64,000 nucleotides of DNA from Agelas oroides (lineage: Eukaryota > Porifera > Demospongiae > Agelasida > Agelasidae). The position numbers and the translations under genes are program-made. Shown here one piece after another: positions 15,362 through 55,840 of the stretch; the first letter of the stretch is position 1, and each line of letters begins with the position of its first letter. Location of the stretch: positions 6,104,636-6,168,635 of the forward strand of contig OX422183.1 of assembly GCA_949130485.1 (NCBI GenBank), given 5' to 3'. The notes under the pieces were generated by a model. It saw only the letters and a program-made list of their open reading frames with translations, searched no databases and was not told the DNA's origin.

Positions 15362-15473
15362 CCCCACGTTTACGGTTAAGAGAGAGATCTGCCCTGTGAC
15401 TGCTCCGATCGTTCACTTCACGTTTAATGCCAAGTCTCGTTTCCAAACTGCACTGTAATCTGGGAACGAGACC
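15362..15473. promoter_or_regulatory. Shared divergent promoter between COPS2 and DDX10
   Basis: Only 112 bp separate the two start codons. The interval holds a short hairpin (TCTCGTTTCC at 15435 against GGGAACGAGA to 15471), related to the dispersed hairpin family, and no TATA box. That the two genes share a promoter is inferred from geometry. Confidence 0.55.
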
Positions 15474-23751: not shown

Positions 23752-26700
23752 CTAACTTTGGTCTCTTGGGGTTGGTCTTTCTGGACATTTGACAGTTTCG
23801 ATATCACCAGCGAGGGTGGAGAGTTCAATGTCACGTAAGACCTCAACAAGAGTTGTCCAGGTCACTGGCTTCTTGCCTCTTCCAGTCAGCCATTCCTGGA
23901 GTATTGCTATGTTGATTTGTTCAGCATTGTTCAAGTATTCATGGGCCATGCTCTTGATACTCAATCCATTTCGGTCATCCAAGAGGAAGGTACCAAACTG
24001 GACATACTTGGTTGCTACTTCAACAGGAACGCTGACCACTCTTCCATCAGTACATGTAAACCTCAGTAGTTCTTGTAGGGTGGGTTTAGTGCCTGGATTA
24101 CATGGTGTGTTAGTGGGAATAGCAGAAACACAGTGGTAACACTATGATACTAGCAAGAGCACATAGAGATGTGACACTGTCATACTCATGCTAAGAGACC
24201 ACCACAATCCTGTTCACAATGCATTTCTATTCTTCCCCCAAAAACTTAGCATGGAAGCACAACTGTAGAGTAACAAATGTTACCTTGATAACTTGGTTGT
24301 TGTACTTGAGCTCCAGTGTGCTGGTATGGTGGGAAGCTGGTATGATGTGGACTGTTAGTTGGTGGAAGCTGGGTAGGTGGTGTGCATAGTGACCAAGTAA
24401 CATACTTCCCAATGTTCAAACCTAATATCTTGTAAGTAAAGGCAATTCAGCAATTATGGAACGTACTGGTGGTTGTATCATAATATGATGCCATACACTA
24501 TCATTACGTAAAATCACATCAAGTATCAGAGGAATTATAATGTAATTTACCTCAGCATGTCCTGTGCAGAAAATAACTACAGCATAAACATAACATGCTC
24601 CTTGCATAATAAAATACTTTACCACAAAAATTGTTCTTCAGTCATTGACTTACTGCAATGGGATTCGTTCTAAGAAACTCTCGATAATAGAGGCTGTAGA
24701 AAACATAAAGATGACACAAAATATTAACATATTGCATTTTCATTTTGTTAGGCTGTATATCTTATAATGCAAACGATACCTGTCAGATGTTCCTGGCAAT
24801 CCAATGCACTTGAGATGGTGTACCAGGAGGGAGTGAGCCTCTACTGCATTCTCTATCTCAGAACGCCAACGATGAAGTAGTGTTAATGAGGCATTCACAT
24901 CATGTTGTAGTGACTGCAGCTGGGGAACCATTTCCAGTTCATCTGCTAGTTCTTTTAGTTTCCCATCTCTCTGGATAGCTCGAGCTACTTCTTGCAACTC
25001 TGTATCACCGAAGTCACCCTTCTGTGCAAGACGCTACAGAAATATGTGTGATGAGTATCTCCCTGTAATGTATTTAGTCAATGACTATTGAAATAATGTA
25101 TTTAGTCTGAGGGATGTACAATGACTACTGAAATTGGAATGCTATCAAAAACATCATATGCACGCAGGAGTGCATAATACTTACCGTATTTCTTCGATCA
25201 GATCTAGATGCCGCGGCTACTATTTTTTTGTTGCACATTTCGTGCAGCTACTATTCGAAGGTGGCATTTATTTCTTTGGCAAGCCTGCTGACATCAACAA
25301 GGGCTAGATAAGGTACGTACAAGCAATATAGTGACGACTGTTGGATGCTGTCAATAGTAAGCGCAGCCTCTCAGTCTGCTGTCAGCAGTGGAAACAAGTC
25401 ATACAGCACAAACAGCCCTAGCGCTAGCGCTAGCTCAGTGACCATCGTCAGAAACTATTCACATACATACGTGTGTGCATGCCGCAAAGAGTAGCCACGG
25501 CTACAATTCGATAGCAGTGTTTATTTCGCTCAGAGCTCCTGATTGTGCGGCTACTATTTGAGGGTGGCGTCTATTCAAAGAAATACGGTACTGCTGATGT
25601 ATCACAAATAGCAGTGATATACAAACCAACACTTATAACATCTACACAAACAACAAACCTCTGGAGTACTAGGTATTTTCAGCCAGTACTGTCTTTCCCT
25701 AGTGAGATTGCAGTGATGACGTGCTTTACAGTAGACATTTAAACCTGTGTCGGCACCACATGGAATGGTGATGAAGTCTGGACACTGCTCACAGAGGAAG
25801 GCTGTTTCTACCTCTACTGAAGGTAGCCATTGACCAACTATGGCAGAACATGCCCGAATTAGTTTCATGATATCACAGCAGGTGCTTCCAAATGTCCTAT
25901 TCTTGTGTGACTGGCGATGTTGAATTCGAACTACATTGATTTGTACACTTGAGGACTGTTCACAGATTGTTAATTCATCAATTTGGTCATAGGCAAATGT
26001 TATCTTGTTGCGGAAGACACCTTGCTCAAAGAGTGGTTCACACTTTGGTTCCCTTGTCAGAGTGGTTGCTAGGCGAGTGAAGAAGCCAGGTGGTACATAC
26101 TTTGTGCTGAATGTAAGATGGATAGGAGAGGACTTCTTCACAACTGTTGTCATACTCTGCATTCTGTATTCTGCCATGTGAGTGGACAAGCTAGGAGGAG
26201 AACTCTGAGATGAGAGCTGAAGAACAGAGGGGACAAAGTATTTTCGACCTTGAATTTCAGAAACTGCTCTTGGAGGGTCAATTGGTGCTGCAAGAAGGAA
26301 GTGTTCAAGAAGATCAGCAAGTGACTGTGGTTTTAGGATGCTTTTTTTCCAGACTTCTTCATACAAAGGTTGAGTAAGGATGCCCTTCTCATGCAGTGGT
26401 TTCCAAAGCAATTGATTGGAAACTTTTTCTTCTAACCCTCTTGGTGCTAGTAGCCTACCCAGCTGCTTAACCAGCCACTGTGGATCAGCAATCACCTGGT
26501 CAGAGAGGCTCCTAATCTGAATGTAGTGGAGGAAGACAGCTAGTTCGTGGTAGAAATGAAGGACACTTGGAACAACATCTTCTGCTATCCCACAAGCTTG
26601 TCCCACTGCAACTGCTCGGTTGTATGCAACAATGGGATTATCTTTTGCTACCTTCTGAAGAACTTTTCTGAATAAAACCCAGGCTACTGGTGTTCGAACT

Positions 26701-27796
26701 TTAAGATGCTCAGAGGCTAATTGGTGCACTTGTTCTCGGATATATCTGAACCCTTTATCTTCATGCTCTTTGCCATGGCCAGCAGTGGTGTTGTCAACAA
26801 TGACACCATCCACAAGTAGAGGAGTGTATGCTTTACCCTCACAATGAGATAGGAGGGTGCTGAGGACTTCCTTATTTTCTTGTACTTCATCACCATGTGT
26901 ACCAACTGGAATAATGCGTGGGAACTTTGGGATGATGTTCTCTCCAAAGCTGTGCTGGTTTCTGGCAGAAATTTGTGGCCCTTTGTGATCATGAGCAGGA
27001 TCAGGTGTTTTCCTTCCTTGTGTAGCTCGACTTTTACCTTCAGATGGTGTAGTGGATGCCTCTAGGTTGAGATCCTCAATTGTATCTTTTCGTATGTACA
27101 TAGCATGAATGCTGGCCATCCACTGAGTTAGAAGCTGCAGTGCGGTAAAATGCTGTTCGGATATGGAAACTAGTCTCCCTGCTCTGTAAGACAATGAACT
27201 ACATTTATCAAGCAGATTTTGACGTGCATCAAAGAAAAGGAGAAACATTGTTCTGGATGTCAGAAAAGCTGGGAGGACATCAAGAAAGACAGGCTGGCCA
27301 CCACAATCCCACACATGCATCAGCACTTCTGAATGTAAATTTTCTGAGCGACTTGTGGGAAGAAAATGACTTATGGAATGCTCTGCAACCTGTTGGAGCA
27401 CAGTTTGAACTTCATTGTCCTTGATACTGGACACATACTCATCACTGCTTTGAACGCTTTGTGGTATGTATCCTTGTAGGTTGAAGTCACTAAGAGAGAC
27501 AGCTTTAGCTGGAGGCAATCTTGCTAATACTAGCTGGAACAGTCCAGCAAGTTCTTCAATCTCATCTCGATCAGTGACTTCAGCCCAGTAGCTGTCAGCA
27601 GCCTCTCCTGCTCTGGCCCAAAACTGTGGTTTCACTGTTTTAGTGTCTGCAAGGATAGTACTCTCAGCATCTTGCGGTAGACTCTGGTTCATGAGTCCCC
27701 TAAGAAGACTGCTCTTGCCAACACCTCCTGGACCAACCATCATCACTCGCGCATAAGCTACCAACACCTCACCAAGTTTCAAAGCTTCTTGATAAT
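23752..27796 (-). CDS. Roc-COR GTPase with C-terminal Death domain, five exons, 5' end not found
   Basis: Exons (minus): 27796-25659, 25033-24780, 24693-24654, 24404-24284, 24092-23752. All have GT-AG borders and consistent phases (1, 0, 2, 0, 1), giving about 963 residues to TAG. Exon 1 carries the Roc GTPase: P-loop GPGGVGKS (about 21-28), DCGGQ (G3, about 163-167) and VGTHGD at the G4 position, then the COR dimerisation region. Exon 2 is helical (VARAIQRDGKLKELADELEM). Exon 4 is a Pro/Gln/Thr linker (CTPPTQLPPTNSPHHTSFPP). Exon 5 is a Death domain (LSIKSMAHEYLNN, ILQEWLTGRG, TWTTLVEVLRDIELSTLA). The architecture suggests a nucleotide-switched signalling protein with Death-fold partners, possibly immune or cell-death related. 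Exon 1 begins in phase 1 (codon N|AT), so upstream exons must exist; directly upstream on this strand lies the 28.7-43.7 kb array. Confidence 0.88.
25184..25588. mobile_element. TA-inserted MITE inside a Roc-gene intron
   Basis: The ends CCGTATTTCTTCGA and TCAAAGAAATACGG are inverted, flanked by TA on both sides. Subterminal repeats GCGGCTACTATT and AAGGTGGCATTTATT recur inverted. It lies in the intron between exons 1 and 2 of the Roc-COR gene; no ORF. Confidence 0.75.
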
Positions 27797-28720
27797 CTGC
27801 AAACAGAAATTAGACAGTTGACATACCAAAATTGCACAGTTGTGTGCATGTGGAGAGGGGGAGGAGCCTAGTATGGTATACAGGAATTAAATGCTCACAG
27901 TAGCCACTTCTTTTCTAGCAACAATCATTTTCAATGTGTATGGACTACTCAACTGTGTTGCACAAGTAAGCTAGAAAAAACTGCTCAGAAAGGAGGTAGG
28001 AACTGAATTTGAGCTGAAAAGGTGCAAGGCTGCAGAAGGGTTTTAAAATTTGGTGAAATGGCTTGAATGTATTCTCTGTTTGCAAAATTGAACATTCGCT
28101 TCTTCATCGTAAAAGACAGTAACCTGAATGGTTTACAACATTCACAAAACTTGATTTCCTCAATCTAGACATGCACTCTCTTGAACCTTAAACATTTTGA
28201 AGGAAACTTGAAAAACACTTTAAGAATAATATTTTGGTTGGCTTAGCTCCAGACATGCTCTTATCAGTACCTCCAGCAGACAGAGGGGCAATCAGACATT
28301 TCTCTTACACACTTTTGGAAGAGTCTAAGATGATTTAGGTGAGGAGGACTATGCAAGCAAGGTTTGCGCTTTCCTTGAAGTGCTTCTACTACAACAATTC
28401 ATCTAACCCAGAAGCAGGAACTGAACTATTTTTCTTCTGTAGTGTTGTAATAAAAACAGTAATACCCACTTGACAATTCTCGCCAAATGATTCAATCAAA
28501 ATACTTATTTAATCACAAGCAACCATTGTCGAGTTGTTTGGGTGCGGCCATTCCCCAATATCTTCCACTCTCTTCCCCCTCCCCTGCTTCCCAGGTAGAA
28601 ATTTATGTGCAGTTGACACAAGGGTGGCATGGAACGACAGTGCACAAAAACTTCACCTTTCAATTTCTTCTCTTGCAGTTTCTATCAAAAAGTAGCGGAA
28701 TACCAGCGGATTCAAGTAGG
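27797..28720. other. Intron upstream of the Roc exon, no exon identified
   Basis: No coding block with splice sites could be supported on the minus strand. A donor-like GTATGTC 30 nt before the Roc acceptor would give an implausibly short intron. Array-like sequence begins near 28725. Confidence 0.5.
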
Positions 28721-29529
28721 AGTGAAAAATGTTAAACAGGACATGGAAGAGGGTGTGACATGGGAGGGAAAGAGAAGCGGTGAGCGGGAGAAGGAAAAAG
28801 AAGAGGAGAAATTACCAATCTACTTGGATGGAATGTGACAGAGTTTCTTACTAAATATTGTATGGTTGCCTATGAGTGGTACTGTACGACAACGTGCAGA
28901 GGTATCATTCTAATAGTCAACTAACAAACTGAGTGGGAGGGAATGGACCAGTTCATGTGGGAAAAGAAGATAAACAAGTGAAACAACATTATTATGTAAC
29001 CTCATCACAGAAATTATCACACACTAGTTGTGTGTTATCATGCTCACTGGTCTACTGCATATTTGGCTTGTCTGCCGATATGGGTGGTATTGTAATCTCT
29101 TGGGACAGTGAGGTCAGGGTTTCATACAGACGGGGGGGGGGGCTGGAAGAGGGTGGGACATGGGAGGGAAAGAGAAGTGGGGGGGTGGGAGAAGGGGAGT
29201 AAGAAGAGGAGAAATAGGGAAAGTATCAACCTACTTTGACGACTTGTGACAGTTTTTTTTACTAAATCTTGCATGGTTGCCTATGAGTGGTAATGTATGA
29301 TAATGTGCACATGTATCATTCTAATAGTCAACTTACAATCTGAGTAGGAGCGAATGGAGCAGTTCATGTGGGAAAAGAAGATAAACAAGTGAAACAACAT
29401 TATTATGTAACCTCATCACAGAAATTATACTGATGGTCTACAATATGACAATACCAACAAAAGGCTGCCATGTTAAATTTCACACATCATTGTTTATCAA
29501 ACACCAGTTGTGTGTTATCATGCTTGCTG

Positions 29530-30050
29530 CTGCATTATAGCCTCGTTCCGAGGCCCCACTCAGCTCTCCGTTGCTTGCTTGGATAAACGGTAGAGGGTCT
29601 GCAATAATTTATCACGTGAGTGACGTAGAAGGTAGGGAGAAGGTAGAGAGGACTTAATTGCATGAGCGTAAGTGGACCGTTGATGTGCCCATGCATGTTT
29701 GCGTATTGATAATTGACAGTATACGTAGCCGTGTTTTAGTAGGAGCCCGTTCTGACAGTTTTTTCAAACAATAAGCTCAGAGAAGACTTGAGCAAAGCCA
29801 TCTTGGCGATTAATAGTGCCTTGAAAGCCATTTTCCGGGGTGTACAGTGGTCAGTTTGCCAAGGTAAGCGAGTAAGTTAGCGTGATTCTCGAAATTATGT
29901 AGAAGTTTGTGCATGCTCACCATAGCTTGCTGTACTGCCAGGTAATGTAGTGTAGTGCCGCCTAGTCCCGTTATGTCAGCCATAAAGGTTTCGCAACCGA
30001 ACAAGTATATTCTGTCCATAAAGTGTGGGCGAGTTCATTCGTTCGCCCAC
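29530..30050. mobile_element. Truncated element with a TAGCCTCGTTC end
   Basis: TAGCCTCGTTCCGAGGCCCC at about 29538 starts non-array sequence that lasts to about 30060, where array sequence (GAGGGTAAGGGAAAGAGAAG) resumes. No matching inverted right end. No recognised ORF. Confidence 0.45.
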
Positions 30051-30214
30051 ATATAATTACGTTCTCTCTACCAGAAGAGGGTAAGGGAAAGAGAAGTTGG
30101 AGCGGGAGAAGGGAATAAGAAGAGGAGAAATGGGGAAAGGTATCTACCTACATGAATGGCATGTGACAAGAGTTTCTTACTAAATCTTGCCTAAATGTGG
30201 CATTGTATGACAAC

Positions 30215-31108
30215 TAGCCTCGTTCCCAGGTGCTCGAAAAATCAGAGGGAGAGCCTGGCACACACTGTTTGCGCATGCGCGGTTCCCCAGGTTTTTCTGG
30301 GGAACTTGGAAACTACTGTATGTCTCTGTGTTGCGCAATTGTATAGACCGTGTGCCTAAATGGGCGTGGTTACAAGTGGCAGTGACGTCATGGGCTATGG
30401 CATCATATTCTGATGACGTAATGTAGGGCAAAAAATGGCTCTGTGAATGGCAAGCTTATACAGCGATGAGGTTATGAGCTGGCTGCTGAACGTTACCATG
30501 AGCCGCACCTAAAATCGCTACAGTATAACATACATCGCTATTAGCCTTATAACATACGTGAGCCACTAAGCAATCCCGCTGTCAGTGTTGCTGGTAAAGT
30601 CGTATACTTTCGAGTATAATATAGAGTCGACACACGTATGGTGGTGAGTTTTGGGAAAGAAGTTGGCAATGCGTTCAACCAAGCCGTATTGTACGTGTTC
30701 GGTAAGGTCAGAAAGCCAGGAATAGTGCTGAAGGATGAACAAATGCTGGGATATGCTGACAGCCCATCATCTTTCGTCACTGCTACCAGAAATATCCATC
30801 CCAGGTGACTCAGTGGGAGATCTTCCAGCTCACCTTGAATGGTGAACAACCCACTAGCGTGTCTTGCATCCACTTCGGAAAGGCAGAAATGGCAGCAAAG
30901 TTGTCGCCATCGCATGTCGCCAACTATGTTCTACACTCATGCCAGTTGTGTATAATTTTACCGAATATTTCTTCACGTTACTATCTGCAAGCTCAGTTTA
31001 CGTGTCATGATAAATTTTACGGAAAGTATTACGGAATTCTTCACGCATGCGTGAGCAGTGTGTACCAGGCACTCCCTCCGATTTTTCGAGTACCTGGGAA
31101 TGAGGCTA
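30215..31108. mobile_element. Inverted-repeat element inside the array
   Basis: TAGCCTCGTTCCCAGGTGCT at 30215 and GTACCTGGGAATGAGGCTA to 31108 are inverted for about 60 bp, including CTCGAAAAATC and GCATGCGC. The ends match the hairpin family but this copy has about 770 bp inside, with open segments on both strands that I cannot identify. It helps explain the 2.07-kb gap between junctions 2 and 3. Confidence 0.75.
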
Positions 31109-34100
31109 TAGACAATTGTGTGTTATCATGCGCACTGGTATATTTTATATCTGGCTTGTCTGCTGATATGGGTGGTATTATAACCACTTGAGACAGTGAG
31201 GCTATGACAGGACACGGAAGAAGGTGGGACATGGGAGGAAAAGAGAAGTGGGGGGGTGGGAGAAGAGGAATAAGAAGAGGAGGAGAAATGGGAAAAGTTT
31301 CAACCTACTTGGACTGCATGTGACAGAGTTTCTTACTAAATACTGCTTGGTTGCCTATGAGTGGTAACGTATGACAATGTGCACATGTATCATTCTAATC
31401 GTCAACTTACACGCTGAGTAGGAGTGAATGGAGCAGTTCATGTGGGAAGAGAAGACAAACAAGTGAAACAACTTTATTACGTAACCTCATCACAGAAATT
31501 ATCAGACACTAGTTGTGTGTTATCATGCGCACTGGTCTAATTTATATCTGGCTTGTCTGCCGATATGGGTGGTATTGTAACCACTTGAGACAGTGAGGCT
31601 ATGACAGGACACGGAAGAAGGTGGGACATGGGAGGAAAAGAGAAGTGGGGGGGTGGGAGAAGAGGAATAAGAAGAGGAGGAGAAATGGGAAAAGTTTCAA
31701 CCTACTTGGACTGCATGTGACAGAGTTTCTTACTAAATACTGCTTGGTTGCCTATGAGTGGTAACGTATGACAATGTGCACATGTATCATTCTAATCGTC
31801 AACTTACACGCTGAGTAGGAGTGAATGGAGCAGTTCATGTGGGAAGAGAAGACAAACAAGTGAAACAACTTTATTACGTAACCTCATCACAGAAATTATC
31901 AGACACTAGTTGTGTGTTATCATGCGCACTGGTCTAATTTATATCTGGCTTGTCTGCCGATATGGGTGGTATTGTAACCACTTGAGACAGTGAGGCTATA
32001 AAATGTTAGACAGGACATGGAAGAGGGTGGGACATGGGAGTGAAAGAGAAGTGGTGGGTGGGAGAAGAGGAATAAGAAGAGAAGGAGAAATGGGAAAAGA
32101 TTCAACCTACTTGGACCGCATGTGACAGAGCTTCTTACTAAATACTGCATGGCTGCCTATGAGTGGTAACGTATGACAACGTGCACATGTATCATTCTAA
32201 TCGTCAACTTACACGCTGAGTAGGAGTGAATGGAGCAGTTCATGTGGGAAGAGAAGACAAACAAGTGAAACAACTTTATTACGTAACCTCATCACAGAAA
32301 TTATCACACACTAGTTGTGTGTTATCATGCGCACTGGTCTATTTTATTGTCTGCCGATATGGGTGGTATTGTAACCTCTTGAGACAGTGAGGCGATGACA
32401 GGACACGGAAGAGGGTGGGACATGGGAGGAAAAGAGAAGTGGGGGTGTGGGAGAATAGGAATAAGAAGAGGAGGAGAAATGGGAAAAGTTTCAACCTACT
32501 TGGACTGCATGTGACAGAGCTTCTTACTAAATACTACATGGTTGCCTATGAGTGGTAACGTATGACAATGTGCACATGTACGTATCATATGAATAGTCAA
32601 CTTACCTCCTGCATGAGTAGGAGGGAATGAACCAGTTCATGTGGGAAAAGAAGATAAACAAGTGAAACAACATTATTATGTAACATCATCACAGAAATTA
32701 TACTGATGAAAGTCTACAATATGACGATACCAAACAAAGATTTTCGTGCTAAATTCTGCACATGCCATTGCTTTTCCAAACACGAGTTGTGTTATCATGC
32801 TCACTGTTCTATTGTATATCTGGCTTGTTTGCTAATACGGGTGGGTGGTAATTCTAATCTCTTGTGACAGTGAGGTCATTAAATGTTAGAGAGGGTTGGA
32901 TATGTGAGGGAAAGAGAATTGGGGGATGGGAGAAAGTGAATAAGAAGAGGAAAAATGGGGAAACGTATCTACCTACGTACATGGACGGTATGTGAGAATT
33001 TCGTACTAATTGTTGCGTGTTTGACTATGAATAACATTCTTTAACAATATGCACATGTATCATATGAATTGTCAACTTACCCGCTGAGTAGGATGGAATG
33101 AACCAGTTCATGTGGGAAAAGAAGATAAACAAGTGAATCAATATTACTATGTAACCTAAATTATACTGATGAAAGTCTACAATATGACAATACGAACCAA
33201 AGATTTTCGTGCTAAATTCTGCACATGCCATTGCCTTTCTACACACGAGTTGTGTTATCATGCTCACTGTTCTATTGTATATGTGGCTTGTTTGCTAATA
33301 CGGGTGGGTGGTAATTCTAATCTCTTGCGACAGTGAGGTCATTAAATGTTAGAAATGGCTGGACATGGGACACAAAGAGAAGTGGGGGATGGGAGAAGGC
33401 GAATAAGAAGAGGAAAAATGGGGAAAAGTATCTACCTACATGGACACCATGTGACGGAGTTTTGTACTAATTATTACGTGTTTGCCTACGAGTAACATCA
33501 TATAACAATGTGCACATGTACGTATCATATGAATAGTCAACTTACCTCCTGAGTAGGAGGGAATGAACCAGTTCATGGGGGAAAAGAAGATAAACAAGTG
33601 AAACAACATTATTATATAACCACATCACAGAAATTATACTGATGGAAGTCTACAATATGACGATACCAACCAAAGATTTTCGTGCTAAATTCTGCACATG
33701 CCATTGCTTTTCCAAACACGAGTTGTGTTATCATGCTCACTGTTCTATTGTATATCTGGCTTGTGTGCTAGTACAGGTGGGTGGTATTGTAATCTCTTGT
33801 GACAGTGAGGTCATAAATGACAGACAGGACATGGAAGAGGGTGGGACATGTGAGGGAAAGAGAAGTGGGGGATGGGAGAAGGCGAATAAGAAGAGGAAAA
33901 ATGGGGAAAAGTATCTATCTACATGGACGGTATGGGACATAGTTTCTTACTAATTGTTGCGTGTTTGACTATGAGTAACATTGTATAACAATGTGCACAT
34001 GTATCATTCGAATAGTCAACTTACCATCTGAGTAGGATGGAATGAACCAGTTCATGTGGGAAAAGAAGATAAACAAGTGAAACAACATTATTATGTAACA

Positions 34101-37100
34101 TCATCACAGAAATTATACTAACAAAAGTCTACAATACGACAATACCAACCAAAGATTTTCGTGCTAAATTCTGCACATGCCATTGCTTTTCCAAACAAGA
34201 GTTGTGTTATCATGCTCACTGTTCTACTGTATATCTGGCTTGTTTGCTAATACGGGTGGGTGGTAATTCTAATCTCTTGTGACAGTGAGGTCATTAAATG
34301 TTAGAAATGGCTGGACATGGGACACAAAGAGAAGTGGGGGATGGGAGAATCCGAATAAGAAGAGGAAAAATGGGGAAAGGTATCTACCTACATGGACGGA
34401 ATGTGACAGAGTTTCTTACTAATTATTACGTGTTTGCCTACGAGTGACATCGAATGACAATATGCACATGTATCATTCTAATAGTCAACTTACCATCTGA
34501 GTAGGAGGGAATGAACCAGTTCATGTGGGAAATGAAGATAAACAAGTGAACAACATTATTATGTAACCTCATCACAGAAATTATACTGATGAAAGTCTAC
34601 AATATGACAATACCAACCAAAGATTTTTGTGTTAAATTCTGCACATGCCATTGTTTATCACACACTAGTTGTGTTATCATGCCCACTGTTCTATTGTATA
34701 TCTGGCTTGTTTGCTAATACGGGTGGGTGGTAATTCTAATCTCTTGTGACAGTGAGATCATCAAATGTTAGAAATGGCTGGACATGGGACACAAAGAGAA
34801 GTGGGGGATGGGAGAAGGCGAATAAGAAGAGGAAAAATGGGGAAAAGTATCTAATAAAGTATCTACATGGACGGTATGGGACATAGTTTCTTACTAATTG
34901 TTGTGTGTTTGACTATGAGTAACATTGTATAACAATGTGCACATGTATCATTCGAATAGTCAACTTACCCGCTGAGTAGGAGGGAATGAACCAGTTCATG
35001 TGGGAAAAGAAGATAAACAAGTGAAACAACATTATTATGTAACCTCATCACAGAAATTATACTGATGAAAGTCTACAATACGACAATACCAACCAAAGAT
35101 TTTCGTGCTAAATTCTGCACATGCCATTGCCTTTCCACACACTAGTTGTGTATTATCATGCTCACTGTTCTATTGTATATCTGGCTTGTTTGCTAATACG
35201 GGTGGGTGGTAATTCTAATCTCTTGCGACAGTGAGATCATAAAATGTTAGAGAGGGTTGGATATGGAGGGAAAGAGAAGTGGGGGATGGGAGAAGGCGAA
35301 TAAGAAGAGGAAAAATGGGGAAAAGTATCTATCTACATGGACGGTATGTGAGAATTTCGTACTAATTGTTGCGTGTTTGACTATGAGTAACATTGTATAA
35401 CAATATGCACATGTATCATATGAATAGTCAACTTACAAACTGAGTAGGAGGGAATGAACCAGTTCATGTGGGAAAAGAAGATAAACAAGTGAAACAACAT
35501 TATTATGTAACATCATCACAGAAATTATACTAACGAAAGTCTACAATACGACAATACCAACCAAAGATTTTCGTGCTAAATTCTGCACATGCCATTGCTT
35601 TTCCAAACAAGAGTTGTGTTATCATGCTCACTGTTCTACTGTATATCTGACTTGTTTGCTAATACGGGTGGGTGGTAATTCTAATCTCTTGTGACAGTGA
35701 GGTCATTAAATGTTAGAAATGGCTGGACATGGGACACAAAGAGAAGTGGGGGATGGGAGAATCCGAATAAGAAGAGGAAAAATGGGGAAAGGTATCTACC
35801 TACATGGACGGAATGTGACAGAGTTTCTTACTAATTATTACGTGTTTGCCTACGAGTGACATCGAATGACAATATGCACATGTATCATTCTAATAGTCAA
35901 CTTACCATCTGAGTAGGAGGGAATGAACCAGTTCATGTGGGAAATGAAGATAAACAAGTGAACAACATTATTATGAAACCTCATCACAGAAATTATACTG
36001 ATGAAAGTCTACAATATGACAATACCAACCAAAGATTTTTGTGTTAAATTCTGCACATGCCATTGTTTATCACACACTAGTTGTGTTATCATGCCCACTG
36101 TTCTATGGTATATGTGGCTTGTTTGCTAATACGGGTGGGTGGTAATTCTAATCTCTTGTGACAGTGAGGTCATTAAATGTTAGAAATGGCTGGACATGGG
36201 ACACAAAGAGAAGTGGGGGATGGGAGAATCCGAATAAGAAGAGGAAAAATGGGGAAAGGTATCTACCTACATGGACGGAATGTGACAGAGTTTCTTACTA
36301 ATTATTACGTGTTTGCCTACGAGTGACATCGAATGACAATATGCACATGTATCATTCTAATAGTCAACTTACCGTCTGAGTAGGAGGGAATGAACCAGTT
36401 CATGTGGGAAATGAAGATAAACAAGTGAATCAATATTATTATGTAACCTCATCACAGAAATTATACTGATGAAAGTCTACAATATGACAATACCAACCAA
36501 AGATTTTTGTGTTAAATTCTGCACATGCCATTGTTTATCACACACTAGTTGTGTTATCATGCCCACTGTTCTATGGTATATGTGGCTTGTTTGCTAATAC
36601 GGGTGGGTGGTAATTCTAATCTCTTGCGACAGTGAGATCATAAAATGTTAGAGAGGGTTGGATATGGAGGGAAAGAGAAGTGGGGGATGGGAGAAGGCGA
36701 ATAAGAAGAGGAAAAATGGGGAAAAGTATCTATCTACATGGACGGTATGTGAGAATTTCGTACTAATTGTTGCGTGTTTGACTATGAGTAACATTGTATA
36801 ACAATATGCACATGTATCATATGAATAGTCAACTTACAAACTGAGTAGGAGGGAATGAACCAGTTCATGTGGGAAAAGAAGATAAACAAGTGAAACAACA
36901 TTATTATGTAACATCATCACAGAAATTATACTAACGAAAGTCTACAATACGACAATACCAACCAAAGATTTTCGTGCTAAATTCTGCACATGCCATTGCT
37001 TTTCCAAACAAGAGTTGTGTTATCATGCTCACTGTTCTACTGTATATCTGACTTGTTTGCTAATACGGGTGGGTGGTAATTCTAATCTCTTGTGACAGTG

Positions 37101-40100
37101 AGGTCATTAAATGTTAGAAATGGCTGGACATGGGACACAAAGAGAAGTGGGGGATGGGAGAATCCGAATAAGAAGAGGAAAAATGGGGAAAGGTATCTAC
37201 CTACATGGACGGAATGTGACAGAGTTTCTTACTAATTATTACGTGTTTGCCTACGAGTGACATCGAATGACAATATGCACATGTATCATTCTAATAGTCA
37301 ACTTACCGTCTGAGTAGGAGGGAATGAACCAGTTCATGTGGGAAAGGAAGATAAACAAGTGAACAACATTATTATGTAACCTCATCACAGAAATTATACT
37401 GATGAAAGTCTACAATATGACAATACCAACCAAAGATTTTTGTGTTAAATTCTGCACATGCCATTGTTTATCACACACTAGTTGTGTTATCATGCCCACT
37501 GTTCTATGGTATATGTGGCTTGTTTGCTAATACGGGTGGGTGGTAATTCTAATCTCTTGTGACAGTGAGGTCATTAAATGTTAGAGAGGGTTGGATATGT
37601 GAGGGAAAGAGAAGTGGGGGATGGGAGAAGGCGAATAAGAAGAGGAAAAATGGGGAAACGTATCTACCTACATGGACGGTATGTGAGAATTTCGTACTAA
37701 TTGTTGCGTGTTTGACTATGAGTAACATTGTATAACAATGTGCACATGTATCATTCGAATAGTCAACTTACCATCTGAGTAGGAGGGAATGAACCAGTTT
37801 ATGTGGGAAAAGAAGATAAACAAGTGAAACAACATTATTATGTAACCTCATCACAGAAATTATACTGATGAAAGTCTACAATACGACAATACCAACCAAA
37901 GATTTTCGTGCTAAATTCTGCACATGCCATTGCCTTTCCACACACTAGTTGTGTATTATCATGCTCACTGTTCTATTGTATATCTGGCTTGTTTGCTAAT
38001 ACGGGTGGGTGGTAATTCTAATCTCTTGCGACAGTGAGATCATAAAATGTTAGAGAGGGTTGGATATGGAGGGAAAGAGAAGTGGGGGATGGGAGAAGGC
38101 GAATAAGAAGAGGAAAAATGGGGAAAAGTATCTATCTACATGGACGGTATGGGACATAGTTTCTTACTAATTGTTGCGTGTTTGACTATGAGTAACATTG
38201 TATAACAATGTGCACATGTATCATTCGAATAGTCAACTTACCATCTGAGTAGGATGGAATGAACCAGTTCATGTGGGAAAAGAAGATAAACAAGTGAAAC
38301 AACATTATTATGTAACATCATCACAGAAATTATACTGATGAAAGTCTACAATATGACGATACCAAACAAAGATTTTCGTGCTAAATTCTGCACATGCCAT
38401 TGCTTTTCCAAACACGAGTTGTGTTATCATGCTCACTGTTCTATTGTATATCTGGCTTGTTTGCTAATACGGGTGGGTGGTAATTCTAATCTCTTGTGAC
38501 AGTGAGGTCATTAAATGTTAGAGAGGGTTGGATATGTGAGGGAAAGAGAATTGGGGGATGGGAGAAAGTGAATAAGAAGAGAAAAAATGGGGAAACGTAT
38601 CTACCTACGTACATGGACGGTATGTGAGAATTTCGTACTAATTGTTGCGTGTTTGACTATGAATAACATTCTTTAACAATATGCACATGTATCATATGAA
38701 TTGTCAACTTACCGGCTGAGTAGGATGGAATGAACCAGTTCATGTGGGAAAAGAAGATAAACAAGTGAAACAATATTATTATGTAACCTCATCACAGAAA
38801 TTATACTGATGAAAGTCTACAATATGACAATACGAACCAAAGATTTTCGTGCTAAATTCTGCACATGCCATTGCCTTTCTACACACGAGTTGTGTTATCA
38901 TGCTCACTGTTCTATTGTATATGTGGCTTGTTTGCTAATACGGGTGGGTGGTAATTCTAATCTCTTGCGACAGTGAGATCATTAAATGTTAGAGAGGGTT
39001 GGATATGGGAGGGAAAGAGAATTGGGGGATGGGAGAAGGCGAATAAGAAGAGGAAAAATGGGGAAAAGTATCTACCTACATGGACACCATGTGACGGAGT
39101 TTTGTACTAATTATTACGTGTTTGCCTACGAGTAACATCATATAACAATGTGCACATGTACGTATCATATGAATAGTCAACTTACCTTCTGAGTAGGAGG
39201 GAATGAACCAGTTCATGTGGGAAATGAAGATAAACAAGTGAAGCAATATTATTATGTAACCTCATCACAGAAATTATACTGATGAAAGTCACCCACAATA
39301 CCAACCAAAGATTTTCGTGCTAAATTCTGCACATGCCATTGCTTTTCCAAACACGAGTTGTGTTATCATGCTCACTGTTCTATTGTATATGTGGCTTGTT
39401 TGCTAATACGGGTGGGTGGTAATTCTAATCTCTTGTGACAGTGAGGTCATTAAATGTTAGAGAGGGTTGGATATGGGAGGGAAAGAGAAGTGGGGGATGG
39501 GAGAAGGCGAATAAGAAGAGGAAAAATGGGGAAACGTATCTATCTACATGGACGGTATGTGAGAATTTCGTACTAATTGTTGCGTGTTTGACTATGAGTA
39601 ACATTGTATAACAATGTGCACATGTATCATTCGAATAGTCAACTTACCATCTGAGTAGGAGGGAATGAACCAGTTTATGTGGGAAAAGAAGATAAACAAG
39701 TGAAACAACATTATTATGTAACCTCATCACAGAAATTATACTGATGAAAGTCTACAATACGACAATACCAACCAAAGATTTTCGTGCTAAATTCTGCACA
39801 TGCCATTGCCTTTCCACACACTAGTTGTGTATTATCATGCTCACTGTTCTATTGTATATCTGGCTTGTTTGCTAATACGGGTGGGTGGTAATTCTAATCT
39901 CTTGCGACAGTGAGATCATAAAATGTTAGAGAGGGTTGGATATGGAGGGAAAGAGAATTGGGGGATGGGAGAAAGTGAATAAGAAGAGAAAAAATGGGGA
40001 AACGTATCTACCTACGTACATGGACGGTATGTGAGAATTTCGTACTAATTGTTGCGTGTTTGACTATGAATAACATTCTTTAACAATATGCACATGTATC

Positions 40101-43100
40101 ATATGAATTGTCAACTTACCGGCTGAGTAGGATGGAATGAACCAGTTCATGTGGGAAAAGAAGATAAACAAGTGAAACAATATTATTATGTAACCTCATC
40201 ACAGAAATTATACGGATGAAAGTCTACAATATGACAATACGAACCAAAGATTTTCGTGCTAAATTCTGCACATGCCATTGCCTTTCTACACACGAGTTGT
40301 GTTATCATGCTCACTGTTCTATTGTATATGTGGCTTGTTTGCTAATACGGGTGGGTGGTAATTCTAATCTCTTGCGACAGTGAGATCATTAAATGTTAGA
40401 GAGGGTTGGATATGGGAGGGAAAGAGAATTGGGGGATGGGAGAAGGCGAATAAGAAGAGGAAAAATGGGGAAAAGTATCTACCTACATGGACACCATGTG
40501 ACGGAGTTTTGTACTAATTATTACGTGTTTGCCTACGAGTAACATCATATAACAATGTGCACATGTACGTATCATATGAATAGTCAACTTACCTCCTGAG
40601 TAGGAGGGAATGAACCAGTTCATGGGGGAAAAGAAGATAAACAAGTGAAACAACATTATTATATAACCACATCACAGAAATTATACTGATGAAAGTCTAC
40701 AATATGACAATACCAACCAAAGATTTTCGTGCTAAATTCTGCACATGCCATTGCTTTTCCAAACACGAGTTGTGTTATCATGCTCACTGTTCTATTGTAT
40801 ATCTGGCTTGTGTGCTAGTACAGGTGGGTGGTATTGTAATCTCTTGTGACAGTGAGGTCATAAATGACAGACAGGACATGGAAGAGGGTGGGACATGTGA
40901 GGGAAAGAGAAGTGGGGGATGGGAGAAGGCGAATAAGAAGAGGAAAAATGGGGAAAAGTATCTATCTACATGGACGGTATGGGACATAGTTTCTTACTAA
41001 TTGTTGCGTGTTTGACTATGAGTAACATTGTATAACAATGTGCACATGTATCATTCGAATAGTCAACTTACATACTGAGTAGGATGGAATGAACCAGTTC
41101 ATGTGGGAAAAGAAGATAAACAAGTGAAACAACATTATTATGTAACATCATCACAGAAATTATACTAACGAAAGTCTACAATACGACAATACCAACCAAA
41201 GATTTTCGTGCTAAATTCTGCACATGCCATTGCTTTTCCAAACAAGAGTTGTGTTATCATGCTCACTGTTCTATTGTATATCTGGCTTGTTTGCTAATAC
41301 GGGTGGGTGGTAATTCTAATCTCTTGTGACAGTGAGGTCATTAAATGTTAGAAATGGCTGGACATAGGACACAAAGAGAAGTGGGGGATGGGAGAATCCG
41401 AATAAGAAGAGGAAAAATGGGGAAAAGTATCTACCTACATGGAGGGTATGGGACAGAGTTTCTTACTAATTATTACGTGTTTGCCTACGAGTGACATCGA
41501 ATGACAATATGCACATGTATCATTCGAATAGTCAACTTACCCGCTGAGTAGGAGGGAATGAACCAGTTCATGTGGGAAAAGAAGATAAACAAGTGAATCA
41601 ATATTATTATGTAACCTCATCACAGAAATTATACTGATGAAAGTCTACAATATGACAATACCAACCAAAGATTTTTGTGCTAAATTCTGCACATGCCATT
41701 GCTTTTCCACACACTAGTTGTGTTATCATGCTCACTGTTTATGCATATCTGGCTTGTTTGTTAATACGGGTGGGTGGTAATTGTAATCTCTTGTGACAGT
41801 GAGGACATAAATGTTAGAAAGGGTTGGACATGAGAGGGAAAGAGAAGTGGGGGACGAGAGATGGCGAATAAGAAGAGGAAAATTTCTACCTACATGGACG
41901 GTATGGGACATAGTTTCATACTAATTGTTGCGTGTTTGACTATGAGTAACATTGTATAACAATGTGCACATGTATCATTCGAATAGTCAACTTACCCGCT
42001 GAGTAGGAGGGAATGAACCAGTTCATGTGGGAAAAGAAGATAAACAAGTGAAACAACATTATTATGTAACCTCATCACAGAAATTATACTGATGAAGGTT
42101 TACTATATGATAAATCCAGCCAAAGACTGTCGTGTCAAATTATGCACATGCCATTGTTTATCACACACTAGTTGCGTATTAGCATGCTCACTGCATATCT
42201 GGCTTGTTTGCTAATATGGGTGGTATTGTAGTGACAGTGAGGGATGGGATGGGAGTGGGGAATGGGAGAAGGCGAATAAGAAGAGGAAAAATGGGGAAAG
42301 GTATCTACCTACATGGACGGCATGTGACAGAGGCTCATAATAATTGTTGCGTGTTTGTCTAGGAGTGACATTCTATGACAATGTGCTGACATTCTATGAC
42401 AATGTAACCTCATCACAGAAATTATACTGATGAAAGTCTACAATATGACAATACCAACCAAACACTTTTGTGTTAAATTCTCCTCATGCCATTGTTTATC
42501 ACACACTAGTTGTGTTATCATGCTCACTGTTCTATTGCATATCTGGCTTGATTGCTAATACGGGTGGGTGGTATTGTAATATCTTGTGACAGTGAGATCA
42601 TAAAATGTTAGAATGGAGACGGAAGAGGGTGGGACTTGGGAGGGAAAGAGAAGAGGGAGATGGGAGAAGGCATATTAGAAGAGGAGAAATGGGGAAAGGT
42701 ATCCACGTACCTACATGGACGGGATGTGACAGAGATTCTTACTAATTGTTACATGTTTTCCTACAAGTGACTTTCTAAGACAATGTGCACATGTATCATT
42801 CGAATAGTCAACTTACCCGCTGAGTAGGAGGGAATGAACCAGTTCATGTGGGAAAAGAAGATAAACAAGTGAAACAACATTATTATGTAACCTCATCACT
42901 GATGAAGGTTTACTATATGATAAAACCAGCCAAAGACTGTCGTGTCAAATTATGCACATGCCATTGTTTATCACACACTAGTTGCGTATTAGCATGCTCA
43001 CTGCATATCTGGCTTGTTTGCTAATATGGGTGGTATTGTAGTGACAGTGAGGGATGGGATGGGAGTGGGGAATGGGAGAAGGCGAATAAGAAGAGGAAAA

Positions 43101-43742
43101 ATGGGGAAAGGTATCTACCTACATGGACGGCATGTGACAGAGGCTCATAATAATTGTTGCGTGTTTGTCTAGGAGTGACATTCTATGACAATGTGCTGAC
43201 ATTCTATGACAATGTAACCTCATCACAGAAATTATACTGATGAAAGTCTACAATATGACAATACCAACCAAACACTTTTGTGTTAAATTCTCCTCATGCC
43301 ATTGTTTATCACACACTAGTTGTGTTATCATGCTCACTGTTCTATTGCATATCTGGCTTGATTGCTAATACGGGTGGGTGGTATTGTAATATCTTGTGAC
43401 AGTGAGATCATAAAATGTTAGAATGGAGACGGAAGAGGGTGGGACTTGGGAGGGAAAGAGAAGAGGGAGATGGGAGAAGGCATATTAGAAGAGGAGAAAT
43501 GGGGAAAGGTATCCACGTACCTACATGGACGGGATGTGACAGAGATTCTTACTAATTGTTGCATGTTTTCCTACAAGTGACCAATGTGCACATGTATCAT
43601 TCGAATAGTCAACTTACCAACTGAGTAGGAGTGAATCAACCAGTTCATGTGGGAAAAGAAGATAAACAAGTGAAACAACATTATTATGTAACCTCATCAG
43701 AGAAATTATACTGATGAAAGTCTACAATATGACAATACCAAC

Positions 43743-43874: not shown

Positions 43875-44379
43875 TTTTTAAGGTGTCATGCCGGTCACTC
43901 GGCGGAGGTTAACGAAAACTTAAACCTCGGTTACAGTCAGGACCAGGGTTACTCCTAGTTTCTGGGTTAGGGTTTGCTTTAGGGCAATCTTACTTTGCCT
44001 AATTTTAAAAAGGGCTTTAGTAGCTCATTAATATATTCATGAACCCGAAATTGCCACTCGATGGATGCATGTACATGCTCACTGTAGGTAGCATCCTAAC
44101 CACCAATGTATCTCAAATCAATACAACTGGATGCCAGCTTTTGTTCAGAGCTACTCTTAAAGTTAGGCTAGACTCATGTTTGTCACTACTTTTGGAATGG
44201 ACAACTTTGACTGCAATGAATGCATATTTTCAGCTTGTCTACGGGAGGGGCTCATTCATGAGTGGAAGCAAGCATTACTAGCCCCACCTCTCCCCCTTGT
44301 GTCACTAAACAACTCACGGCTGTGTTCCACACACAACCACTCTGCACCTCCTTTGGCGATAGATAATACAGCGTAGTAC

Positions 44380-46259
44380 CAACGATATATTGGGTATTCT
44401 AGTTAAAGCCCAGCCCAGCACTTGAAGCACCTGGCCACGGTCACCAACTAGGCTAGGCATATGGCCTTGAGACCTACGTAGGGCTACTCAACAAACACAG
44501 TCTTGGCCACTGTGGCCTTTCTGCTGCTTCTAGCTACAGCTACTGACACTACAGCACTCTACTAAACTCCTTCTTTGCAAATTACACCCCAAGTGGAAAG
44601 AAATAGTAATGAATGAATGAAAAGCCACAAAAGTGCATGTGTCTGTTCAATGTTTTAGCCTTTCCTTCCAAGCCTGAGAGGACTTACGGAAGTTTGACAC
44701 CACAGCTTGAAAAAGTCATCATTGAAGTATCTACTGTGCAAGCACTAAGGTCGAGAGCTAATCGACAGAACCATACATTTGTCAACAAAAATGAGAGTAT
44801 GCGATATTTTTTTTAAACCACTGCTAACCTGAGTTATGATCAAAAATGTTGACACTTCAGTGACCACGCTAAACTTCATCCTGACTTGCAGCTCTGGAAT
44901 TCCAAAATTTTCTGGGGAAGCATCCCCCCCCCACCCCCCAACTTTGTTCCTTCGTTTTGCGCTGAAATTCCCACAAACGTACTGTGCCCACGCTGTGCCC
45001 TAGCATCGGCTGTATGCTGGCTACACCACTGAGTCACTTTGATACTTAAGTGAAGTGCGCACTTCGCTACAGGCTTGCTCACTACAGCACATGCCATGCC
45101 TCCACAGAGCTTTTGATGGCAATGGTGCTTCTTTACAACACCGACTGATGTCTTTCAGTATAGCATATGTGTGGTGTTCTTATTTTCTATACAATTTAGA
45201 TATAGATGCGTACAACAGTAGCATGGCCATCTTCTGCCCAGCAAGTTGGCTGCCTTTGTATCATCTTGCCTCTACATGGCTTCAATTACCACCTATTAGC
45301 ACCCCTCTTCTAATTGGCAATACAAAGTAAGCTTCACTTCACTCTACACCCAATGACTATGTAATGTTAGAAGTTGGATTGTGCACCTAACCCCAATCCC
45401 CTGTTCCCTGTTCCACTTTTGCCCTAATCTAGCCAGGCTTCCACACTATGTGTAGTTAGTGGGTTTCTCTTGGTCAAAGTTTGTGCCCTTGCTGCTTGCT
45501 CACCATGCACCATGGAAGTGTGTGCCTCTAGTGGATCTGCTCAATGGTCTGTTATGGGTAGGACGAAATGGCCTGCCACCTACACCCGATACTTTTCACT
45601 TGGGATGCAGTTACCACTCTAGTCACTGCTTTTTGTTCCACAAAAAATAAAAATAAAATAAATAAAATAAATAAGTCAATCTAAGCTTATCTTCAAAGTT
45701 CCGACCACCACACCAGGGATTCTGCCAGGCCACATCTTAACTAACTTAATTATAATTGCATTATTGGATGCCAACTATAAATTATTGGATGCCAATTATA
45801 AATGCATTATTGGATGCCAATGCCGACAGGAAGCTGGGAAAATTCCCAATTATATGGACCGAGAACAGTTGAAGACTCCCAAAACTGACTATTTGCTAAC
45901 CGATTAAGAAGACAAAGAAGTCTATCAGCTTGGATTTCAGGTTTGTCGACCTCAAAAATACAGGGTGCCTCATGTGGTGGTCGGAACTTTGAAGATAAGC
46001 TTAGATCGACTTAAAAAAGAAAAGAAAAAAAAAAGGAGTTTAGTAGAGTGCTGTAGTGTTAGTAGCTGTGAGTGGTGCGTAATGCCTGCTTGTGAAAGCA
46101 AGCTTGTGTCTAGAAGCAGCAGAAAGGCCACAGTGGTCAAGGCTGTACTCATTGGGTAGGCCCAGGCCTTGCGATCGTATGCCAAGCCTAGTAGGTGACC
46201 GTGGCCCAGCGCTCCGAGTGCTGGGCTGGGCTTTAACTAGAATGCGCAATATATCGTTG
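44380..46259. mobile_element. 1.9-kb inverted-repeat element (CAACGATATATTG ends), copy 1
   Basis: CAACGATATATTGGGTATTC at the left and CAATATATCGTTG at the right bound inverted arms of about 200 bp sharing CTAGTTAAAGCCCAGCCCAG, GGCCACTGTGGCC and AAACTCCTTCTTT. A second, partly deleted copy occupies about 61660-63492. No transposase found; the interior ORFs of 60-90 residues are unrecognised. Confidence 0.75.
45672..46012. repeat. Inner foldback element within copy 1
   Basis: AAGCTTATCTTCAAAGTTCC at about 45680 and GGAACTTTGAAGATAAGCTT at about 45985 are inverted. Three tandem ATTATTGGATGCCAA copies lie inside. A half copy is present at about 61430-61665. Confidence 0.65.
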
Positions 46260-46479
46260 CATAGATAGTAGAGTAGGATATGGATTGGAAACGCACGTAA
46301 CTCACGTGATCAATCTGCCATTAACGCCCATACTGAACGCGGCATGCCCTTTGATCTTATGGGGTTCACTAAGTTCACCCAACTCCATGTGGTGACATCA
46401 CAATTTGTAATGTTTATTCCTTGCGCATTGCGCGCGCGGATCGAAGATGGAACTGGATCCAGACATGTTAATTGGAAGA

Positions 46480-49891: not shown

Positions 49892-50685
49892 ATAAGAAAA
49901 ATGGCACTTTTCCTAGCGCACACTTTTGTGTTTAGCTGTCTTCCGCAGTCTTGCTGATCACAAAGGCACTCAAAGAGGAAGCCTGGGCGCGTTTGTGGTG
50001 AAGTTATACGGCTTTTGCTTAAGTATTGCATATATTGCGCATCGGTGCCATCCCTACATAGAGAGTCTACCGGCTCTCTGATACTGAAGCCAAGGTGTTG
50101 CTACTGTCTCAAAATGGATCTTATTGGTCAGCATCTCATGCATACTAATAACATCTGCTAGACCCTCTCTCACTTTTCAGGAGGGTGAGAGATGGTCTGG
50201 CTTGATAGACTATTTTAGGTGTTAATTGGAAGCTTATCACATTTTCAGTTACTGATAGCATAAATTGCAGAGGCGCCTCTGAATTTTAGGTGTTAATTGG
50301 AAACTCATCAGTTACTGATAGTATAAGCATTGGCAACCAATAATCTGCAAGCTGGCTATCTTTGATGATGTATAAACAATTTGATCCATGCAACAACATG
50401 CCAATAGACTTTATAATTAGGTCCCAGTTTTTCCAGTAAAGGTGTCAAGACCCTATTCTTCAATGAGGCCATGCGTCAAAAACTTGGTCTGGAGATGAGA
50501 ATAAGTTTGTTATGCAGCACTAATCCTATTTCGTGTGCATATTCCCTCACAATGAGACATACCTCATCCTCAGATGGCTCACTGTCACTCATTGTTAGGT
50601 CAGTGTGCTGCTGCTAGGAAACAAAGATGGCATCAAAATTAATTTCAGGTAACTTAGAAAATGGCAACGGTTGTGGAACATAGCT
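49892..50685. other. No gene seen
   Basis: Unique-looking sequence with a local duplication (TTTTAGGTGTTAATTGGAA at about 50214 and 50284). No supported ORF. Confidence 0.5.
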
Positions 50686-55239: not shown

Positions 55240-55840
55240 AACTCAGAGGAGTGACATTGCTCGAGCTCACTTTATGGTTCAAGTTGAAAATATGAGTGCT
55301 GATACCTTTATATGGGTTGATGAAACTGGCTCAGACAAGCGGAATGCTCTTAGAAAGTATGCTTACAGCCTGTGAGGTGTTACACCCATCAACTACTGCC
55401 TCTACACTTCAGGTAGGTGAATATCTGCAATTTCTGCTATTTCAACAAGAGGGGTTGAAGATTTTTATCTCGCAGGAGGTGTCAACGGTGATACGTTCTG
55501 TGCTTTTATTGAAAAGTGCTTGCTACCTGTTCTAATGCCCTTCAATGGGTCTAACCCCGTTCCATTGTTGTCATTGACAATGCTTCAATCCATCACATTG
55601 ACAAAGTCGTACAATTGGTCAGTGGTGTTGGCACCCTGCTGTGGTTCCTTCCCCCGTACAGTCCAGACTTAAATCCTATAGAACCAGTTTTTAGCCAAGT
55701 GAAATCCTACTTAAAGAATAATAGTGTAGCATACAGGATTTGTGATAATCCACGTCTTTTTGTACATGCAGAATTTACATCTGTCACACAAGAACACTGC
55801 CTAGGGCATATTGAGCATGTAGGTTACAAACTACACTAGT
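55240..55840 (+). pseudogene. DDE transposase remnant (Tc1/mariner-IS630 type)
   Basis: Across shifting frames: WVDETGSDKRNALRKYAYSL with a conserved D; GVNGDTFCAFIEKCLLPVLM; a VIDNASIHH-like block (second D) in the third reading; then LLWFLPPYSPDLNPIEPVFS and QVKSYLKNN, with the catalytic acid in NPIE. Several stops and frame changes mean it is dead. It lies exactly between the palindrome arms. Confidence 0.8.

Follow-up and report, generated by a model that had tools for sequence, protein, structure and literature searches.

Can exons of a single codon be multiplied within one gene until they form a library of interchangeable residues? This question is raised by a 64,000-nucleotide stretch of the genome of the sponge Agelas oroides (contig OX422183.1, called C1 below, positions 6104636-6168635; hereafter the window). 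On its minus strand, a series of 28 repeat units lies upstream of an exon encoding the Roc and COR-A domains of a Roc-COR GTPase, and at each junction between units stand three bases that change from unit to unit. We consider it probable, at about 0.82, that these triplets are translated, alternatively used single-codon exons, however many of them enter one messenger RNA (mRNA), and the series looks like a library of such exons under diversifying selection.

The array and its extent in the genome

An earlier note on this DNA had described, in region 28725-43742, 28 minus-strand junctions in which a pyrimidine tract with CAG is followed by a three-base gap, and this description was borne out at 28 of 28. 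Between positions 43620 and 28926 each junction follows CAG-NNN-GTWAGTTGAC, with the pyrimidine tract ahead of the CAG and exactly three bases between CAG and donor. The donor is GTAAGTTGAC in 27 of the 28 units, and the last unit reads GTTAGTTGAC; a 4-base insertion (CTCATGCAG) is present in the acceptor at 32608. The introns had also been called near-identical, which holds for the sequence near the junctions, where hardly anything varies, but not for all of their lengths. Spacings between junctions are 393-479 in 24 of 27 cases; one is 2074, and two near the array start, 801 and 821, by eye lack a junction within them. Over the 28 junctions, column entropy was 1.85, 1.89 and 0.86 bits for the three triplet positions, compared with 0 or 0.22 in the three bases before and the ten after; all four bases occur in triplet columns 1 and 2.

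By this junction pattern the array of 28 three-nucleotide (3-nt) exons with their introns occupies 28926-43620 (minus strand). In transcription order, microexons 1 to 14 are TTG (43618-43620), CGG (42817-42819), CGG (41996-41998), CGG (41541-41543), TAT (41072-41074), GAG (40593-40595), CCG (40120-40122), ATG (39648-39650), AAG (39186-39188), CCG (38713-38715), ATG (38242-38244), ATG (37772-37774), ACG (37307-37309) and TTT (36838-36840). Microexons 15 to 28 are ACG (36373-36375), ATG (35906-35908), TTT (35437-35439), CGG (34969-34971), ATG (34494-34496), ATG (34025-34027), GAG (33546-33548), CGG (33081-33083), GAG (32606-32608, that with the 4-base insertion in its acceptor), CGT (32213-32215), CGT (31808-31810), CGT (31411-31413), ATT (29337-29339) and TTT (28926-28928), the last of which is followed by the donor GTTAGTTG, probably a weaker one.

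We searched the 259-Mb assembly (141 contigs) with the 18 fixed bases of the junction, CTACTCAG-NNN-GTAAGTTGAC, and obtained 289 + 332 = 621 matches, compared with 0 for the reversed control. When a gap of 0-12 bases was allowed between the two halves, the whole genome still returned 289 + 332 = 621, all with a spacing of 3. A shorter, 14-base pattern gave 837 matches and its control gave 2; a chance origin of the pattern is excluded by these control counts. The figure of 621 is a lower bound, because the shorter pattern gives 837 and because the units of the gene at C9:8740683, which have other donor tails, escape the longer pattern. In the 14 genes read whole or in part, a scan with free spacing found 3 bases in 220 of 220 units, its acceptor pattern being stricter than that of the other unit scans and leaving 17 of 237 units with diverged acceptors outside the count. 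A spacing of 0, with the acceptor AG directly followed by the donor GT, was never found with the patterns used, either in the genome or in the 14 genes, and no exact pattern match was found in the GTDB contig collection or in IMG/VR.

The strict spacing bears on the suggestion that the junctions are recursive splice points, which would aid removal of a long first intron and leave three bases as a non-coding by-product. Acceptor and donor do stand almost back to back, as they do in recursive sites. Recursive sites, however, are not known to retain any nucleotides, whereas 621 of 621 junctions here keep exactly three, and the triplets are diversified and free of stop codons, as described below. 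We regard this explanation as very improbable.

The Roc exon has 17 close paralogues with E values below 1e-40 (13 on C1, 3 on C9 and 1 on C17), two of which came out of the search split into two pieces. All 17 have units upstream on their own strand, and, among the matches listed, every place with units is upstream of a Roc exon of this family. Four arrays were read whole, with 66 units (A), 28 units (B), 25 units (C) and the 28 of the window; ten more, read in part, gave 2 to 23 units each, and three are known from listed positions alone (5717782, 6199994 and C17:4013064). One array spans at least 63 kb (5872699-5935863). A divergent array at C9:8741001-8750000 has 23 units in 9 kb, with a unit of about 262-288 bases and donors that include GTAAGTTGTG, GTAAGTTATC and GTAAGTTGTC, and its exons are still 3 nt long. 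The weakest of the 17 array links is that of gene 8628654, which has two units in the 6 kb read, one of them with an altered donor, and a further series that begins 50-100 kb upstream. We conclude that the array is no single oddity but belongs to a multigene system with 621 units or more.

Reading frame and probable translation of the triplet

In the four genes for which the comparison was complete (A, B, C and the window), the array lies in the intron between a short first coding exon and an exon of 25 nt. In the window the first coding exon, MSDSEPSEDE, is at 50563-50592 (minus strand); it starts with ATG, ends in phase 0 at a donor gtatgt, and has a possible acceptor, ctagcag, 18 nt ahead of the ATG. 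A shared block upstream of the arrays holds such an exon in 4 of 4 genes, with an ATG, 27-30 coding nt, a donor GTATGT or GTGTGT and a phase 0 end, and encodes 9-10 residues that by eye are mostly polar. The 25-nt exon, at 28657-28681 (minus strand), encodes KLQEKKLK plus one base and leads from phase 0 to phase 1 between an acceptor gatag and a donor gtgaag. A pattern for this exon, with up to 3 mismatches (control 0), detected 15 loci in 15 of the 17 genes, each 0.85-10.1 kb upstream of a Roc exon. The Roc-COR exon of the window (25605-27796, minus strand) follows an acceptor tttgcag, begins AT|TAT CAA in phase 1 and stays open to a stop at 25602-25604, its 3′ end being approximate.

Because the first exon ends in phase 0, the 25-nt exon shifts the reading from phase 0 to 1 and the Roc exon starts in phase 1, the triplet would be a whole in-frame codon, and the predicted joined product is M..E-[X]-KLQEKKLK-DYQEALKLG-Roc. 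The earlier note had proposed to look for transcripts in which an upstream exon and triplets run straight into the Roc exon at 27796. In that arrangement the frame is lost, and the conserved 25-nt exon that intervenes restores it. Direct joining of the first exon to the Roc exon was rejected on the same ground, since a phase 0 end meets a phase 1 acceptor.

Two other parts of this intron stand out. About 100 nt right after the first exon (50460-50562, minus strand) are kept in the four genes. By eye, conservation there exceeds that of the exon, and this block is a candidate control element; we found in it no pairing with the units that recurs between genes. Between the first exon and the array, similar words occur in opposite orientation, by eye, near 44.4 and 46.2 kb (44300-46300), where there is perhaps a mobile element.

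We asked whether the triplets carry the marks of translated codons. None of the 621 is TAA, TAG or TGA, while TGG occurs 12 times, and the TAN box holds 7 TAY and no TAR. When the columns of 146 triplets from the four arrays were shuffled, 4.7 stops were expected, and none appeared in 0.3% of shuffles (0.6% within arrays). Splice donors prefer G at position -1, and the third base is G in 416 of the 621 triplets. With each kind of triplet counted once per gene over 14 genes, the third base was other than G in 5 of 36 kinds from four-fold boxes compared with 23 of 44 from split boxes (Fisher p 3.8e-4). The genome counts, in which units are not independent, were 59-60 of 284 four-fold and 145-146 of 337 split (p 8e-9); the four-fold figure consists of SKN, with 183 triplets and 55 non-G, and NCN, with 101 triplets and 4 non-G among 100 listed. 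The third base is thus mostly G unless the amino acid needs otherwise. All 20 amino acids are encoded, 16 of them in the four arrays and H, Q, S and C elsewhere, C once.

Diversification and possible use of the codons

Diversity was analyzed in 64 of the 66 units of A, 25 of 28 in B, 23 of 25 in C and 24 of 28 in the window, after units before a gap of at least 700 and last units had been dropped. The per-site difference was 0.46-0.71 in the triplet compared with 0.02-0.10 in 54 flanking bases across the four arrays. In windows of three columns the triplet reached 4.33, 3.61, 5.21 and 4.55 bits (A, B, C and window), and the best other position reached 2.41, 3.15, 2.88 and 3.69; by plain entropy, too, triplet columns head the list in all four. 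On trees for which the triplet had been left out, its three columns changed 21, 19 and 13 times in A, 7, 12 and 2 times in B, 13, 12 and 9 times in C and 11, 11 and 5 times in the window. The array means were 0.5-0.8 changes, the maxima in the other columns were 10, 6, 6 and 7, and in 4 of 4 arrays none of these 329-473 other columns reached the lesser of triplet columns 1 and 2. Of the 63 unit pairs in array A that show 4-6 differences over 300 flanking bases, 44 have unlike triplets. The consensus sequences of the four arrays are invariant in 30 of 32 columns at the splice ends, compared with 66% in the interior.

The earlier note had proposed single-codon cassettes that could be chosen or chained in frame, and this proposal is strongly supported by sequence, namely by the strict 3-nt spacing, the lack of stops, the diversification of the codon and the presence of units in 17 of 17 genes. 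Several points weigh on the other side. We know of no precedent for an array of 3-nt exons. Synonymous codons without a final G exist (CGT, CTC, CTT, GGA and a few others), counter to the third-base rule. AGN codons are absent (0 of 621), as would be expected if an AG within the exon interfered with recognition of the acceptor; splice-site rules explain their absence equally well. One triplet column of array B, that on the start side, ranks only sixth by plain entropy. Where two units differ at no more than one of 300 flanking bases, they mostly have the same triplet (12 of 12 pairs in A, 5 of 6 in B, 4 of 6 in the window; C has no such pairs), so there is no sign that the triplet changes at every duplication. 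The residues of the first exon differ much among the four genes, which makes this exon less certain than the 25-nt exon. The latter was not found in 2 of the 17 genes, although the Roc exons of these two also appear by eye to be in phase 1. When the joined N-terminus was compared with 5.8 billion proteins, 8 matches were obtained (20 candidates), none with the residues of the 25-nt exon before DYQEALKLG. Finally, duplicated units are not independent and the p values are optimistic, which the tree counts correct in part.

A hypervariable site could also arise at the level of DNA, in a satellite that is no exon and is, for example, the target of a mutator or recombinase. Triplet changes of several bases between near-identical units look targeted, as in one pair of the window with 1 difference in 300 flanking bases and 3 of 3 in the triplet. 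Yet the avoidance of stops, the third-base rule and the fit to the frame point to translation, very recent duplicates mostly keep their triplet, and the listed places of units are all upstream of a Roc exon. A satellite of this kind therefore seems to us very unlikely. Mutator and exon readings are compatible and both can be true; there may be a moderate site-specific mutator at the triplet, and selection for difference is the simpler reading of the codon diversity.

Single-codon exons need not be alternative, and every triplet could always be spliced in, giving a fixed peptide of 28 residues for the window and 66 for array A, assembled one codon per exon. The splice signals on both sides of the units, the kept frame and the absence of stops in the chained read are what such a chain would have. 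It would, however, need 28-66 efficient 3-nt exons in series, the number of units varies among genes, and a fixed peptide gives little reason for selected differences between units. We consider a constitutive chain improbable.

If the triplets are instead used alternatively, the first exon would be joined to one or more of them and then to the 25-nt exon. mRNAs of one gene would then differ by one or a few residues about 10 residues from the N-terminus, adjoining the KLQEKKLK-DYQEALKLG run that leads into the GTPase. For steric reasons, U2AF and U1 can scarcely occupy a 3-nt exon together. Since its acceptor and donor would hardly be bound simultaneously, stepwise splicing is favored. In a first step, the first exon would be spliced to a unit; in a second, the GTAAGT of that unit would serve as the donor of the lengthened exon and fire again, either to another unit or to the 25-nt exon. 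Each stop would leave one codon, and without an extra device the process need not halt at one unit.

How many triplets enter one mRNA is the point on which the exclusive choice of exactly one, a special case of the preferred reading, parts from an ordered sample of several. Such a choice would resemble Dscam and would be made via competing RNA pairing or a silencer. As far as the account in PMC6071210 goes, such arrays are usually found among tandemly duplicated exons whose introns resemble each other, and the diversification seen between units suits a set of alternatives. Downstream of the 25-nt exon there is a purine-rich stretch whose pairing with the pyrimidine-rich portion of the unit exceeds shuffles in B, C and the window (p 0.002, 0.0005 and 0.0095) and not in A (p 0.163). 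However, within the 80 bases after the 25-nt exon this stretch is missing in 3 of 7 further genes, a gene's own pair ranked first in 1 of 4 comparisons by unit and in 3 of 4 by stretch, with no clear co-change, and whole-duplex folding gave nothing consistent. For pairing after the first exon or before the 25-nt exon, shuffles were exceeded in single genes only (C with p 0.04 and A with p 0.015, over 8 tests). Array A is moreover redundant, with 12 codon kinds in its 66 units. Exclusive choice is therefore possible but rather unlikely. A Dscam-type docking site is not claimed, given the genes that lack the purine-rich stretch and the lack of a consistent preference for the own pair. The stretch itself (GGGAAGCAGGGGAGGGGGAAG) lies at 28560-28593 of the window on the minus strand, occurs in several paralogues and is missing in others, and its G-runs after the tiny 25-nt exon may simply be an enhancer.

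We lean toward an ordered sample of several codons per mRNA over a choice of exactly one, because array A, with its 12 codon kinds in 66 units, has more units than the choice of one residue requires but is not redundant for an ordered sample; we give this sample slightly less than an even chance. A more tentative and clearly less probable proposal is a codon ratchet, in which stepwise splicing would write a different ordered string of codons into the Roc-COR N-terminus in each cell or molecule. The result would be a combinatorial peptide tag with an alphabet of all 20 residues across the family, kept diverse by selection. If so, the 17 genes could serve as an identity or recognition code.

The encoded protein and comparison with known systems

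The Roc-COR exon matches Pfam Roc (46.5 bits, cut-off 27) followed by COR-A (47.3 bits, cut-off 35.3), and its best matches of solved structure by sequence are 4wnr, a leucine-rich-repeat protein, and LRRK2, with E values of about 1e-5. An AlphaFold model of the exon on 44 sequences was poor, with a mean predicted local distance difference test (pLDDT) score of 54 and values below 50 over residues 1-74, and was not used. More exons probably follow. An open frame at 24743-25033 (minus strand) is a probable further coding exon; a query from it that omitted 17 middle residues matched sequence downstream of the Roc exon in the three other genes, at 54-60% identity, and it has no Pfam match. At 23755-24141 (minus strand) there is a weak Death-domain candidate (Pfam Death E 0.0078, 16.8 bits, below the cut-off of 22.6). 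Death exceeds that cut-off, at 30 and 31 bits, in frames downstream of the Roc exons of B and C, and was not matched in the candidate frame downstream in the gene of array A.

The Roc-COR family is also large in other public assemblies, with 742 protein matches, so that the arrays could be compared across species. By eye, the residues of the 25-nt exon are absent from the best 120 of these 742, the ones examined, and those 120 look like unspliced genomic frames.

Elsewhere in the window, an uninterrupted frame of 780 amino acids at 15459-17798 (plus strand) encodes a DEAD-box helicase with an SPB4-like C-terminal extension. Pieces of transposases, a hAT dimerization region and a DDE_3 endonuclease, lie at 7829-8209 (minus strand) and 55555-55836 (plus strand). 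Minisatellites occupy 7102-7455 and 5096-5717, with a 17-base unit repeated 21 times at 96% and a 14-base unit repeated 46 times at 79%.

If the arrays are spliced as they read, the unit of alternative splicing would be a single codon, and evolution would have built libraries of hundreds of units that vary chiefly in that codon. This would be a new route to protein diversity beyond gene rearrangement, hypermutation and the choice of domain-sized exons. It would also become testable how the spliceosome deals with a 3-nt exon at which simultaneous binding of both splice sites is hardly feasible.

We next compare the arrays with known systems. Recursive splice sites share with them the back-to-back acceptor and donor and the stepwise splicing proposed here, and differ in the bases retained, 0 there and always three here. 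Roco GTPases such as LRRK2 have Roc and COR-A domains alike, both above the Pfam cut-offs here; what sets the sponge family apart is its 17 close paralogues, in which codon arrays precede the Roc exon and, in some, Death-like frames follow it. Dscam exons are domain-sized, whereas here each exon would hold one codon, and docking-selector pairing is not established here. On the exon reading of the units, tandem duplicated exons do lie within one intron, and the Dscam1-type arrays of arthropods likewise contain dozens of exons duplicated in tandem within one intron, with introns that resemble each other and exon content that varies; one exon is chosen there via docking-selector pairing, according to the parts of PMC6071210 used here.

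In schistosome micro-exon genes (MEGs), the middle of the coding region consists of small exons whose lengths are mostly multiples of 3 and which could be left out with the frame preserved (PMC4671649). These microexons are shorter than 36 bp and differ from one another, 26 of 33 being symmetrical in the set described, and the MEGs in that account encode relatively small, secreted or membrane proteins (PMC4671649). Small exons that could be skipped in frame would thus be shared with the arrays, insofar as that account describes them. MEG exons are of varied length and distinct, whereas here all 621 have 3 nt, in near-identical units (four arrays aligned) with one hypervariable codon. MEGs also have a signal peptide in their 5′ exon; the 9-10 residues of the first exon here are mostly polar by eye.

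Single 3-nt microexons are described in mouse Ncam and Drosophila TnT (PMC8042270), and 1-nt microexons in the plant genes APC11 and VPS55, that of VPS55 with a conserved GTRAGT donor (PMC8831610). Exons of 1-3 nt are therefore spliced, but in the parts of these two sources that we drew on they appear as single exons and not in an array. In the sponge, splice signals likewise stand on either side of 3 in-frame nt. A literature search on microexon arrays, 3-nt exons, sponge microexons, Roc-COR expansions and recursive splicing gave no such system among the matches listed, preprints and most subscription journals being outside its scope. As far as the sources used here describe them, none of the compared systems combines a tandem array, one-codon exons and a hypervariable codon. 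If each complementary DNA (cDNA) proved to carry exactly one triplet, the arrays would be an extreme variant of the Dscam type and not a new kind of system.

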